Below, in pieces: positions 36,283 to 59,264 of a stretch of 64,000 nucleotides of DNA. Origin of the DNA: Cryobacterium sp. PH31-L1 (GTDB taxonomy: Bacteria > Actinomycetota > Actinomycetes > Actinomycetales > Microbacteriaceae); contig NZ_JASISM010000003.1 of NCBI RefSeq assembly GCF_030063145.1, forward strand, positions 310,001 to 374,000. Reading direction: 5' to 3'. The notes beneath the pieces are model-generated. The model was not told where the DNA came from. It ran no database searches and was given only the letters and a program-made list of their open reading frames with translations. Position numbers and translations under genes: made by a program. Numbering within the stretch: the first letter of the stretch is position 1; each line of letters opens with the position of its first letter.

Positions 36283-36451
36283 GGACGCGGTGCCGGACGG
36301 GATACGCAGCGCGCACGCCATCTCCGCCACCAGGCCCTGCTGCGCGGCGAAGGTCGCATCCCGCGAACCTGCATTCGCACCGACACTCGCCTTTTCGAGG
36401 CGGCTCGCGTTGGTCCACGGGGGTCTCGAGAGGCTAGACCGGCGCAGCGCT

Positions 36452-54992: not shown

Positions 54993-55024
54993 GAGTCGCT
55001 GCCCGACACCCCCCTCGCCTCCTG

Positions 55025-55122
55025 CGAGATGCCAATTTCGGCCCCATGAACGGTCCAACCACCCACGAGATGCCACATTCGACCCCATGGAACGGCGCCA
55101 AGGGGCCGAAGTTGGTCTCTCG
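55025..55122. repeat. Three-unit intergenic repeat between oleA and oleBC
   Basis: Two direct copies, cgagatgccaatttcggccc (55025-) and cgagatgccacattcgaccc (55066-), are each followed by catg(g)aacgg. A third copy is inverted (55099-55122, reverse complement cgagagaccaacttcggccc). The first and third can pair into a long hairpin in the ole transcript. No coding potential is seen in the 175-base gap. Confidence 0.7.
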
Positions 55123-55167
55123 TGAAAACCAAGGGGCCGCAAGCGGCTTCTCGGGCTCAGAAGGAGT

Positions 55168-58100
55168 GTGACCGAGATTCGCGCAACCGCAGCTTCCCGT
55201 CTTCCGCGCCCACGGCCGGCCGAGGCGACCCTGCCGCCATCCGGGCTGGCCGGGCTGAAACCCGAGTGGTCGCGCCTGGTCGAGGTCGCCGAGAGTGGGT
55301 CTTCCGCGTCTCACGGATGGCACCTGCTCGACAATGGGCCGCAGCTCGACGCGCTCGGCGTGATTCCGGTCGGCACCATCCTGTGCGTGCACGGCAATCC
55401 CACCTGGTCGTACCTTTGGCGAGGGCTGCTGGCTGCAGCAACGGATGCAGCACAGTCGGGCGCGCCCGCCTGGCGCGTGATCGCCGTCGACCAGCTCGAC
55501 ATGGGATTCTCCGCGCGTACTGGAGGGTTCCGCCCGCTCGCCCGTCGGGTGCAGGACCTCGGCGACCTTACCGACTCCCTCGATCTGGCCGGCCCGGTGA
55601 TCACGCTCGGTCACGACTGGGGCGGAGTCGTCTCGCTCGGCTGGGCCGTCGACCATCCCGAACTGCTGGCCGGCGTGATGCTGCTGAACACTGCGGTACA
55701 CCAGCCCGCCGGCGATAAGATTCCGGCGCCCCTGCGGCTCGCGCTCGGGCGTGGAATCCTCGGACCTGCGACCGTGGCGACGCCCGCGTTTCTGGCCACG
55801 ACGCTGAATCTTGCGCATCCGCCGCTGTCGGCCGAGGTGAAGCGCGGCTACAGCGCGCCGTACCTGACGGGCGAACGCCGCGGCGGCATCGGCGGGTTCG
55901 TCGCCGATATTCCGGTCGCGCCGGGGCACGAGAGCCGGGCTGAACTCGACCGCATCGCCGAGGGCGTGCGCGTGTTGGCCGTGCCGGCGCTGCTGCTCTG
56001 GGGCCCCCGGGATCCGATCTTCAGCGACCGCTACCTCGACGACCTGGTTGAACGGATGCCGCACGCTCGCGTTCACCGGTTCGAGGGTGCCGGGCACCTG
56101 CTCGCCGAAGACGCAGACTACGCCGCCGCCGCGCTGCTCTGGCTCGGGGACGCCCTTGAGCCCGGTCTCCTCGACTCGGTTCACGCAGAGACGTCGCGTT
56201 CCCGGAATGGCGATCTCGACAAGCTTGATCAGCGGAGGGGGGCGCCTGGCGCGCTATCCGCCGCGACGTCGGGACTCGAGGCCGTCGCGGTGACTGCACC
56301 AGTGTCGTTGGTCGAGCTTGTCGAGACCGCCGTCTCGCGTGCCGAGCCGGGCGCGATGACTGCACCAGTGTCGTTGGTCGAGCTTGTCGAGACCGCCGTC
56401 TCGGATGTTGCGCCGGTCTCGGCGGCTGCACCATCGTCGTTGGTCGAGCCGGTCGAGGCCGCCGACGGCGGACCGGCAGCCGCGTGGCAAGCCGCGGGGA
56501 CGCATCCGCTCTGGCACTATCTCGACGTCCTCAAAGACTCCGACGAGACCGCCCTCGTCGACATGCAGCCGGCCCCGCGCACCGTCAGCTGGCGGTTGCT
56601 CTCTCGGCGCGTGCGCCAGATCGCAGCCGGTCTCGTGCACATCGGCGTCAAACCCGGCGACCGCGTCTCCCTCCTCGTACCGCCGAGCGCCGACCTCACC
56701 GCGGTGCTCTACGCCTGCGTGCGCATCGGCGCGATCGTCGTCGTAGCGGATGCCGGCCTCGGCCTTCCCGGCCTCACCCGCGCCGTGCGCGGCGCCCGCC
56801 CGGACTTCGTGATCGGGGCCGCTCCCGGCCTCATGGCCGCGCGCGCACTCGGCTGGCCAGGCCGAAAAATCTCGGTTGCCCGATTCCCGGCACCGATGGC
56901 ACGGCTGCTCAGTATCGAGCACACCCTGGCCGGGCTGATTCAGCTGGGCCAGGCCCGACTCGAATCCGGCGACTTACTCCCGGTTGAACCCCGGCCAAGC
57001 GACGCGGCCGCCGTGCTGTTCACGTCCGGATCGACCGGACCGGCCAAGGGCGTCGTGTACACCCACGGGCAGCTCTCCGCCGTGAGCAACGCCCTCTTTG
57101 TGCAGTACGGCGTTGGCGTTGGCACCGGCCTCGTCGCCGGATTCGCCCCGTTCGCCCTACTCGGCCCGGCTCTCGGCGCCCGCTCGGTCACCCCCGATAT
57201 GGATGTCACGGCGCCCAAAACCCTCACCGCAACCGCGGTCGCCGCCGCCGTCGCCGCGATCGACGCAACCGTCGTCTTCCTCTCGCCCGCGGCCCTCGTG
57301 AACGTCGTCGCGACCGCCGACGCGCTCACCCCAGCCGATCACGCCGCCCTCGACGGGGTGCAGCGCTTTCTATCAGCCGGTGCACCCATCTCGGAGAGCC
57401 TGCTCACTCAGGCCGCCGCACTCATGCCGGGAGCGACAGCGCACACCCCCTACGGCATGACCGAGGGCCTGCTCATGGCCGACATCACACTCGACGGCAT
57501 TCGCGCCGCCGCGGCGAGCCTGGCCAGGCCAGCGGATGCCGCGGCGCACGACGACGAGTCCGCCAGACTCCCCGAGACGGCGGTCTCGACAAGCTCGACC
57601 AGCGGAGCGGGTGCGGCCGCGCCGGCTGAAGGCGAGCAACTATCGGCCGTGAACCCGGCCGGGGGAGTCTGCGTCGGTGGGGCGACCGCGACCACACGCA
57701 TCCGAATCAGCGCGCTCGACGCGAGAGGGGCATCCGTTGGTGAACTCACGGAAGAGCCCGACCTGACGGGGGAGATCGTCGTGTCGGCGCCGCACGTCAA
57801 GGACCACTACGACCGGCTCTGGCTCACCGAGCGCGCCTCGCGGCGCGGCGCTGTGGTGGGCGAACGCTGGCATCGTACCGGCGATGTCGGTCACCTCGAC
57901 GGTGCAGGCCGGCTCTGGGTGGAGGGCCGTATGCCGCACGTCATCGTGACGGCTGACGGCGTCACGACCCCGGTCGGGCCGGAGCAGCGCATCGAAACCC
58001 TGCCCGAGGTTTTTCGGGCGGCCTTCGTCGGTGTTGGCCCGCTCGGCACCCAGCAGCAGGTCGCCGTGATCGAAACGGTACCGCCGGCCCGGCGGGTGCA

Positions 58101-58278
58101 CCGCGCTGCGGAGCCCCTCGCTGCCGCCGTGCGCGCCGCGGTGGGCTCGCCAGTCGCCGCCGTGCTGGTGGTGCCCGGCCTGCCGACTGATATCAGACAC
58201 AACTCCAAGATCGACCGCAGCCGGCTGTCGCGCTGGGCCACGGGCATCCTCTCTGGCGGCAAGTGGGTCAAGCCGTGA
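55168..58278 (+). CDS. oleBC: OleBC fusion: beta-lactone decarboxylase joined to beta-lactone synthetase
   Basis: The 1036-residue protein fuses two olefin enzymes. Residues 20-340 are OleB, an alpha/beta-hydrolase of the haloalkane-dehalogenase kind: CVHGNPTWSYLWRGLL, nucleophile Asp150 in LGHDWGGVVSLGW, His310 in EGAGHLLAED. Residues 450-1036 are OleC, an AMP-dependent-synthetase relative that closes the beta-lactone: LFTSGSTGPAKGVVYTHG, TPYGMTEG, GDVGHLDGAGRLWVEGR. Between them residues 375-441 are three 22-residue repeats (TAPVSLVELVETAVS...). A similar repeat-derived insert lies near residues 803-813. The GTG start is only one base from AAGGAG. Fusions of this kind are known in actinobacteria. 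Confidence 0.93.
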   Translation: MTEIRATAASRLPRPRPAEATLPPSGLAGLKPEWSRLVEVAESGSSASHGWHLLDNGPQLDALGVIPVGTILCVHGNPTWSYLWRGLLAAATDAAQSGAPAWRVIAVDQLDMGFSARTGGFRPLARRVQDLGDLTDSLDLAGPVITLGHDWGGVVSLGWAVDHPELLAGVMLLNTAVHQPAGDKIPAPLRLALGRGILGPATVATPAFLATTLNLAHPPLSAEVKRGYSAPYLTGERRGGIGGFVADIPVAPGHESRAELDRIAEGVRVLAVPALLLWGPRDPIFSDRYLDDLVERMPHARVHRFEGAGHLLAEDADYAAAALLWLGDALEPGLLDSVHAETSRSRNGDLDKLDQRRGAPGALSAATSGLEAVAVTAPVSLVELVETAVSRAEPGAMTAPVSLVELVETAVSDVAPVSAAAPSSLVEPVEAADGGPAAAWQAAGTHPLWHYLDVLKDSDETALVDMQPAPRTVSWRLLSRRVRQIAAGLVHIGVKPGDRVSLLVPPSADLTAVLYACVRIGAIVVVADAGLGLPGLTRAVRGARPDFVIGAAPGLMAARALGWPGRKISVARFPAPMARLLSIEHTLAGLIQLGQARLESGDLLPVEPRPSDAAAVLFTSGSTGPAKGVVYTHGQLSAVSNALFVQYGVGVGTGLVAGFAPFALLGPALGARSVTPDMDVTAPKTLTATAVAAAVAAIDATVVFLSPAALVNVVATADALTPADHAALDGVQRFLSAGAPISESLLTQAAALMPGATAHTPYGMTEGLLMADITLDGIRAAAASLARPADAAAHDDESARLPETAVSTSSTSGAGAAAPAEGEQLSAVNPAGGVCVGGATATTRIRISALDARGASVGELTEEPDLTGEIVVSAPHVKDHYDRLWLTERASRRGAVVGERWHRTGDVGHLDGAGRLWVEGRMPHVIVTADGVTTPVGPEQRIETLPEVFRAAFVGVGPLGTQQQVAVIETVPPARRVHRAAEPLAAAVRAAVGSPVAAVLVVPGLPTDIRHNSKIDRSRLSRWATGILSGGKWVKP
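56214..56236 (-). repeat. Inverted copy of the dispersed palindromic repeat in oleBC
   Basis: tctcgacaagcttgatcagc and its next three bases match the reverse complement of the 66-base repeat core with two mismatches in 23. It is read in frame as part of the OleB-OleC linker. Confidence 0.65.
56291..56488 (+). repeat. Three tandem 66-base repeats inside oleBC
   Basis: Units start at 56291, 56357 and 56423. The first 47 bases of units 1 and 2 are identical (from tgactgcaccagtgtcgttg to gagaccgccgtctcg); unit 3 keeps the period but has diverged. Each unit contains ggtcgagcttgtcgagacc, a partial palindrome of a dispersed actinobacterial repeat. Since 66 is a multiple of three, each unit adds 22 residues in frame. 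Confidence 0.9.
57574..57600 (-). repeat. Inverted repeat copy inside the OleC domain
   Basis: These 27 bases are the exact reverse complement of 56310-56336 in the tandem array. They encode PETAVSTSSTS in a low-complexity insert of OleC, about 35 residues before the conserved GGVCVGGA-like region resumes. Confidence 0.8.
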
Positions 58279-59264
58279 GAGTGCTCGTCACCGGGGCCAG
58301 CGGTTTTCTCGGTCGCGCCGTCGCTGAGCGAATCAGCGCGGCCGGGCACGAGGTGCGCACCTTTCAGCGGCGGCCATCGGGCTTGACCGGCGTCGAAGAC
58401 GTGCACGGCTCGATCACGACCCCGCCGGATACCCCCTACGCCGGGCTCGCCTACGCGGTGAGCGGTATGGACGCGGTCGTGCACCTCGCCGCGAAGGTCT
58501 CGCTCACCGGTGACCCGGCCGAGTTCGAGGCGGTCAATGTTGGGGGCACCCGCACCGTGCTGCAGGCCTCTCAGCAGGCCGGCGCCTCCCGTTTCGTCTA
58601 CGTCTCGTCGCCGTCGGTCGCCCACGCCGGTTCGTCGATCATGGGCTCAGACGCCCTGCCGGCCTCGCCCGAGCAGGCCCGCGGCGATTACGCCCGCACC
58701 AAGGCGCGGGCCGAACTGCTCGCGCTCGCCGCCGATGCTCCCGGATTCAGCGTGGTCGCCGTACGGCCGCACCTGGTCTGGGGCCCCGGCGACACCCAGC
58801 TGATCGACCGGATCGTCGACCGCGCTCGCCGCGGACGGCTGCCGTTGCTCGGGCACGGGGCGGCGCTCATCGACACGACCTATGTCGACAATGCGGCGTC
58901 CGCGATCCACGCGGCCCTCGACGCGGCGCCAACGGTGCACGGCCAGTCCTACGTGATCACCAACGGTGAACCGCGCCCGGTCGCTGAGCTCCTCGCCGGA
59001 ATCTGCGGGGCGGCCGGCGTGGCCGCGCCCGCGTGGCGGGTGCCGGCATCCGCTGCCCGTGCTGCCGGTTCGATCATCGAGGCGATCTGGCGGCGGCGCC
59101 CCGGAGCCGACGAACCGCCGATGACCCGGTTTCTGGCCGAGCAGCTCTCGACCGCGCATTGGTTCGACCAGCGCCGCACCCGCGCCGACCTGGCCTGGAC
59201 TCCGGTCGTCTCCCTCGACGAGGGCTTCGCCCGCCTGGCGACCCACTACCGCGCCGCCAGGTAG
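58275..59264 (+). CDS. oleD: OleD, 2-alkyl-3-oxoalkanoate reductase
   Basis: The 329-residue extended short-chain dehydrogenase reduces the OleA product to the hydroxy acid used by OleC. The NADP-binding motif is RVLVTGASGFLGRAVAE, the catalytic Tyr/Lys pair lies in GDYARTKARAE, and VVAVRPHLVWGPGD and LIDTTYVDNAA follow. The GTG overlapping the oleBC stop (GTGA) is preferred; an in-frame GTG 12 bases earlier is an alternative. With oleA and oleBC it completes the four activities for long-chain alkene synthesis. Confidence 0.92.
   Translation: MRVLVTGASGFLGRAVAERISAAGHEVRTFQRRPSGLTGVEDVHGSITTPPDTPYAGLAYAVSGMDAVVHLAAKVSLTGDPAEFEAVNVGGTRTVLQASQQAGASRFVYVSSPSVAHAGSSIMGSDALPASPEQARGDYARTKARAELLALAADAPGFSVVAVRPHLVWGPGDTQLIDRIVDRARRGRLPLLGHGAALIDTTYVDNAASAIHAALDAAPTVHGQSYVITNGEPRPVAELLAGICGAAGVAAPAWRVPASAARAAGSIIEAIWRRRPGADEPPMTRFLAEQLSTAHWFDQRRTRADLAWTPVVSLDEGFARLATHYRAAR

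Follow-up and report, generated by a model that had tools for sequence, protein, structure and literature searches.

Probable in-frame capture of a short dispersed repeat by the oleBC linker and other protein loops in Cryobacterium

The window, a 64,000-nucleotide stretch of a Cryobacterium sp. PH31-L1 contig (NZ_JASISM010000003.1, positions 310,001–374,000), carries an oleBC gene flanked by a ketoacyl-synthase-III-like (OleA-like) gene and an epimerase-like (OleD-like) gene. The product is an OleBC fusion: a hydrolase domain and, after it, an AMP-binding domain are encoded as a single polypeptide, and oleA- and oleD-like genes lie alongside. The presumed function, that of a two-part enzyme of hydrocarbon synthesis, follows the Ole pathway and PMC7064751. 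NCBIfam beta-lactone synthetase models scored under their cut-offs on OleBC (231.7 against 900 and 225.2 against 850 bits), and a PDB search with the whole protein returned no chain at an E-value of 1e-20. The nearest named relatives of the window belong to Cryobacterium, for example C. flavum, with 87% in the best segment. The features of the gene, in window coordinates, are as follows.

55168–58278, + strand: oleBC, 1036 aa, GTG start, one open frame (ORF listing)
Residues 70–315 of OleBC: Abhydrolase_1 domain (OleB, alpha/beta hydrolase; Pfam)
Residues 457–774 of OleBC: AMP-binding domain (OleC; Pfam)
56146–56502, + strand: inter-domain linker L1, residues 327–445
56212–56230, − strand: decayed inverted copy of the 19-mer, 3 mismatches, read as GDLDKLDQR
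56277–56342, + strand: tandem unit 1, 66 bases, exact 19-mer at 56310–56328, read as VELVET
56343–56408, + strand: tandem unit 2, 66 bases, exact 19-mer at 56376–56394
56409–56474, + strand: tandem unit 3, diverged, 66 bases, 19-mer at 56442–56460 with 3 mismatches, read as VEPVEA
57493–57660, + strand: second variable loop L2, in OleC, residues 776–831
57572–57601, − strand: exact 30-base inverted copy of 56375–56404, 19-mer at 57582–57600, read as (TA)VSTSST

The 19-mer GGTCGAGCTTGTCGAGACC occurs in oleBC as three exact copies and two copies with three mismatches, all of them in frame and coding for residues 349–355, 381–387, 403–409, 425–431 and 805–811. A sixth match in the window (36422–36440, three mismatches) lies at a place unrelated to oleBC; 100 shuffles of the window gave a mean of 0.05 matches and a maximum of 1, against the 6 of the real sequence. 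Tandem repeat detection delimited an array at 56286–56464 with a period of 66 and 2.7 copies, and identity to unit 1 was 100, 89 and 71% for units 1, 2 and 3, respectively. The first-pass annotation had described three tandem 66-base units and two inverted copies, all translated in frame, and this layout stands, except that the exact inverted match in L2, some 1.2 kb from the linker units, is 30 rather than 27 bases long. The 47 identical bases that it placed at the start of units 1 and 2 do exist (56291–56337 and 56357–56403), albeit not at the start of the unit in the 56277–56342 register. That the array is an assembly or sequencing artefact is scarcely credible: the assembly does consist of 33 contigs, but the units are not identical to one another and similar arrays occur in other assemblies, including the single-contig assembly of G021, where L1 has its own set of three 66-base units, the third of which departs from the others in its final bases.

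Exact copies of the 19-mer were found in 19 of the 40 genomes searched, namely in 18 of 25 genomes of the genus (the present one included) and in 1 of 15 others. Copy number per genome ranged from 0 to 268 across the 25 genus genomes, with 0 for the reversed control. The present genome holds five exact copies, three of them in oleBC, and 37 copies with up to three mismatches (reversed control 4). The conserved core, approximately CG(C/T)TGGTCGAGCTTGTCGAGACC, spans about 19–28 bases; right flanks vary between species, and the core is preceded by CGCT or CGTT in the clade of the present genome and by CGTC in the consensus of G004 and G024.

Across the genus the copies proved to be mostly intergenic, which bore out the earlier description of a dispersed intergenic repeat in related actinobacteria. 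Eight close relatives yielded 47 places in seven genomes; among the 42 copies with distinct context, 33 were intergenic, four internal to genes (one in oleBC), two C-terminal, two at 5′ ends and one doubtful; oleBC of G015 and of G054 lay outside the loci read. Ten further genomes gave 136 copies, drawn from 146 exact places (for G008, 3 of the 44 places were covered, and for G024 every place except the one in oleBC), of which 111 were intergenic, six internal, two C-terminal, 15 at 5′ ends and two doubtful. In addition, when up to one mismatch was allowed, 400-kb samples of G004 and G021 contained 73 and 33 copies, at called coding shares of 76% and 85%. At the same threshold, the present genome has 13 copies, five of them intergenic (four in convergent gaps) and three in oleBC; one each lies in frame in dnaX, nadB, mshD and a 132-aa ORF without a Pfam match, and the last lies 18 codons into an ORF that is probably over-extended. 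The script itself had tallied these 13 as five internal, five intergenic and three at predicted 5′ ends, and the mshD and 132-aa ORF copies were moved from the 5′-end class to the in-gene class by eye.

Summed over the present genome, the eight close relatives, the ten further genomes and the G004 and G021 samples (tandem copies counted singly, genes called by our own codon model), intergenic copies with both neighbours called lay 91 times in convergent gaps and four times in divergent gaps, as would be expected of 3′-end elements. On a rival reading, the oleBC copies would serve as a terminator, a protein-binding site or a signal for mRNA processing; we regard such a DNA or RNA role as improbable, given that an L1 copy is absent from 29 of 54 oleBC genes and that a lone copy folds weakly. 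The palindrome reported in the first-pass annotation does show some self-pairing, but it is imperfect and a lone copy forms a 4-bp end stem only (−3.6 kcal/mol, RNA parameters). An Rfam search of 55001–58500 gave no match up to an E-value of 1, and a structured RNA at the oleBC copies was rejected on that ground.

At L123:16314–17223 in G004, ten repeat copies with 99-base spacing stand upstream of an alpha-mannosidase-like gene with glycosyl hydrolase 38 domains. An open frame passes through these copies, and coding composition starts only past the array.

A transposase of the RAYT type was considered as the mover of the repeat and rejected, since its Y1 domain (PF01797) was detected in none of the 25 genus genomes; elsewhere it was detected in one of 15 non-genus genomes (G039) and in five of 14 control genomes. 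A search of literature text did not find five repeat strings, although strings split over lines or set in figures would escape such a search, and none of the titles and abstracts searched concerned the 19-mer repeat.

Capture is not confined to oleBC. It also involves DnaX, NadB, MshD, RecF, HrpA and RhaD, all of which score above their NCBIfam cut-offs, and PriA-like and RecQ-like proteins, which score under theirs (the PriA-like protein has its Pfam DNA-binding domain); one C-terminal case carries a DUF222 domain. Five of the nine nameable hosts, oleBC included, are replication, repair or nucleic-acid unwinding proteins (DnaX, PriA-like, RecF, RecQ-like and HrpA; loci L264, L255, L304, L322 and L342), albeit in small numbers.

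The accepted hosts outside oleBC, with orthologs counted once, all use one of the same three reading frames (12 of 12). The VE[LP]VET frame is used by four (dnaX, nadB, priA-like and hrpA), the VSTSST frame by seven (mshD, the 132-aa ORF, recF, recQ-like, rhaD and two C-terminal tails) and the GLDKLD frame by one, the DUF222 tail. Given six equal frames, the chance of this outcome is (1/2)^12, or about 2.4e-4, for a tally that leaves out a few matches placed at the 5′ ends of predicted genes or in ORFs of doubtful status, at least one of them in an unused frame (L225), and all 29 in-ORF matches of G004 (16 of 73) and G021 (13 of 33), many of them in an unused frame. Those 29 were dropped because we regard their ORFs as over-extended or spurious, a view checked for three ORFs only: ten fall in a 1247-aa ORF that is GC3-rich only from about residue 330 and has Pfam domains from residue 644, five in another whose GC profile is wrong, and one (L121) was read as peptide only, while for the remainder the criterion was position or a short ORF, without homology. 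The repeat core is free of stops in all six frames. The three frames in use are GC3-rich and give peptides without Arg and Cys; the unused ones read GRACRD, SSLSR and SRQAR.

Restriction to three frames is what one might see if selection at the protein level had favoured acidic or Ser/Thr-rich disordered linker peptides whose likeness to the intergenic repeat was coincidental, and many repeat-free linkers are likewise rich in Ala, Pro and Glu. We nevertheless consider this very improbable, as the DNA identity over 19–30 bases includes silent sites, both strands are used, and the linkers of three relatives carry the repeat subfamily of their own genomes.

Sites in three hosts other than oleBC were compared between genomes, and RhaD showed both filled and empty versions. 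A surface joint of RhaD contains repeat DNA in three of ten aligned sequences (exact in G003, with one mismatch in G002 and two in G006), and the other seven have a short NATPES-like joint. The RecQ-like loop is filled by an exact copy in G007 and by a one-mismatch copy in G004; an internal TGA in recQ of five relatives was also followed up and set aside, the stops lying, in the one informative locus, at the edges of the matched stretch. The NadB linker holds a one-mismatch copy in the present genome, in G008 and in G012; in G013 the match has five mismatches and is not a clear case. In G008 and G012 the NadB linkers (L359 and L360) also hold STGSTTGG-like runs coded by the opposite strand of the repeat with one mismatch, which is another instance of growth in place.

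Of 57 genus genomes, 54 yielded an oleBC sequence; no strong match was obtained in G006 or G056, G065 had the OleB half only, at a contig end, and the gene is cut or frame-broken in G046, G048, G061 and G067. In G067 (L209) the frame breaks after about residue 854, through either a real frameshift or a sequencing error. L1 ranged from 21 to 119 aa in the 54 genes and L2 from 11 to 62 aa in 53 (G048 is cut before L2). With up to three mismatches allowed, the 54 genes contain 48 copies in L1 (9.5 kb), three in L2 (5.4 kb) and two in the rest (137.5 kb; G001 and G064), with a reversed control of 0. L1 is occupied in 25 of the 54 genes at this threshold and in 17 of them when no more than one mismatch is allowed, and L2 is occupied in three of 54, namely in the present genome (G000), G018 (three mismatches) and G054 (one mismatch). 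Median linker length was 67 aa with the repeat and 43 aa without (p = 0.018, a statistic that ignores kinship).

A single capture long ago, in the oleBC linker of the common ancestor of the genus, often lost or eroded afterwards and followed by duplication and conversion only, would account for part of this pattern. All 28 forward L1 copies with at most one mismatch share one phase, as one old insertion with many losses would give; two decayed copies are off this phase (G013, forward, phase 1; G061, reverse, phase 2). The trait is also clustered on the tree, with none of 500 shuffles as low. On a linker-free tree of 53 rows (G048 left out), there were at least ten trait changes, of which strong branches force eight, in five places that include two single rows; these figures count changes, not gains. 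Several observations make such a history unlikely. Tandem spacing in L1 is not uniform: it is 66 bases in both G000 and G021, whose units are unlike, but 48 in G019 and 30 in L043. Moreover, one gene has both orientations. The subfamily GGTCGAGCTTGCCGAGACC (TTGCC form), carried by oleBC of G015, G054 and G064, accounts for 18 of 20, 9 of 15 and 1 of 2 copies in these genomes, respectively (oleBC copy included, tandem copies counted singly), and for 0 of 13 in the present genome. Two Agreia genomes have a different repeat, CCCTTCGACAAGCTCAGGGA, in this linker; it is present in them in 381 and 77 copies with at most one mismatch and in 0 copies in the present genome. The partial filling of the RhaD loop (three of ten) points the same way, and repeated capture, with a number of gains that would be independent of one another, is the reading we prefer.

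Tandem 30- and 42-base units (DYSTNGG..., NGQFTPHPEATAPP...) were also seen in the oleBC linkers of Agrococcus (L058:3987–4147) and Arthrobacter (L060:3912–4056). These units resemble dispersed repeats and may be other captured repeats.

Copying between the two loops was suggested by TTGTCGAGACCGCCGTCTCG, which extends past the family core. The present genome contains it exactly three times, each time in oleBC and with both strands represented. None of the 56 other genus genomes has an exact match; one-mismatch versions occur once each in G043 and G013, the latter in another gene. Because the exact form is found only at the three oleBC copies, the L2 inverted copy is best explained by a likely inverted exchange with the L1 units 1.2 kb away. 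The extension itself may be old and common to both sites, since relatives code TAVS beside their copies, after the repeat in L1 of G058, G010, G009 and G013 and before it in L2 of G014 and G054, and since L2 is occupied in G018 and G054.

AlphaFold2, run on 36 aligned relatives, gave OleBC a mean pLDDT of 79.3. The only segments below 50 were residues 1–5, 339–433 and 799–828, and all five repeat copies fall inside the latter two. Low pLDDT from 36 sequences is not proof of disorder; the model suggests that the loops receiving repeats are probably permissive and disordered. The repeats were not conserved in the other aligned genera, nor did they have a predicted fold, as they might if they belonged to a folded domain shared across genera.

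Taken together, these data make it very probable that an intergenic repeat has been captured in frame into the oleBC linker and other protein loops and has then grown within the gene. A short REP-like dispersed repeat with a core of about 19–28 bases, for which the genus genomes gave no RAYT, would insert into permissive loops, and insertions that keep the frame would survive. The oleBC inter-domain linker would have been used as an insertion site in several lineages; here, the captured copy would have grown as stretches of 66 bases (22 codons) were duplicated in tandem, and conversion or template switching within the gene would have homogenised units 1 and 2 with the L2 inverted copy. We suppose the growth of the linker to have been near-neutral rather than a gain for the enzyme.

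The first reading of these repeats, as linker growth by repeat capture, is thus largely supported: copies within genes have exact repeat DNA, those in oleBC sit in low-confidence, length-variable segments, and the subfamily in oleBC of three relatives is the form common in each one's own genome. It needs amending in that the downstream copy was likely copied within the gene and that capture is not special to oleBC. A wider proposal is, in our judgement, evenly balanced: that the oleBC linker and the NadB, RhaD and RecQ loops are standing sites that repeatedly take up whichever short repeat is abundant in the lineage, one in Cryobacterium and a different one in Agreia, with subsequent tandem growth and inverted conversion to a second loop of the gene, as a general route in Micrococcales for providing and renewing inter-domain linkers from dispersed repeats.

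The stages by which a non-coding repeat becomes protein sequence (empty sites, exact copies, tandem growth and decayed remnants) are visible here in one well-sequenced genus, which offers a measurable system for the origin of disordered linkers, the prevalence of the three frames and the movement of a repeat with no RAYT found. As a caution, LVEPVET or VSTSST in these proteins reflects repeat DNA and not common function.

The oleBC fusion, described as tethering OleB and OleC and as typical of Micrococcales (PMC7064751), is common to the published system and the Cryobacterium gene, whereas linker repeats, present in Cryobacterium, are not mentioned in the portion of that text consulted. Intragenic REPs are short dispersed repeats, mostly extragenic and partly within known genes, where they occur as singles, dimers or clusters; the consulted part of PMC3733652 suggests flexible linkers or loops as their location and shows REP-bearing DNA synthesis and repair genes in a figure. 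That part names no actinobacterium among the intragenic cases and mentions untagged REP-like families in M. tuberculosis. The Cryobacterium repeat is likewise short, dispersed, mainly extragenic and partly within genes, and across the genus it is a REP in the broad sense, the present genome having only five exact copies. It differs from GTAG-tagged REPs in lacking GTAG in its consensus and PF01797 in the 25 genus genomes, and from CGTC-tagged REPs in having no constant CGTC (CGCT or CGTT in its own clade) and a 4-bp stem instead of one of 8–9 bp. Rickettsia palindromic elements (RPEs), the classic example of in-frame insertion, are according to the consulted part of the review PMC10969869 about 150 bp long and are read in frame, with a conserved peptide, in unrelated proteins. 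In-frame insertion into unrelated genes is a property shared with the Cryobacterium repeat, whose core is only 19–28 bp, and tandem growth together with likely copying within the gene sets it apart from the RPEs described there. In-frame capture of the REP or RPE kind is already known and is found here in an actinobacterial genus, at recurrent sites and with no RAYT found in 25 genomes; what seems new is the repeat family and its host genus, the restriction to three frames, the occupation of a single linker by two different repeat families, and the inverted copy.
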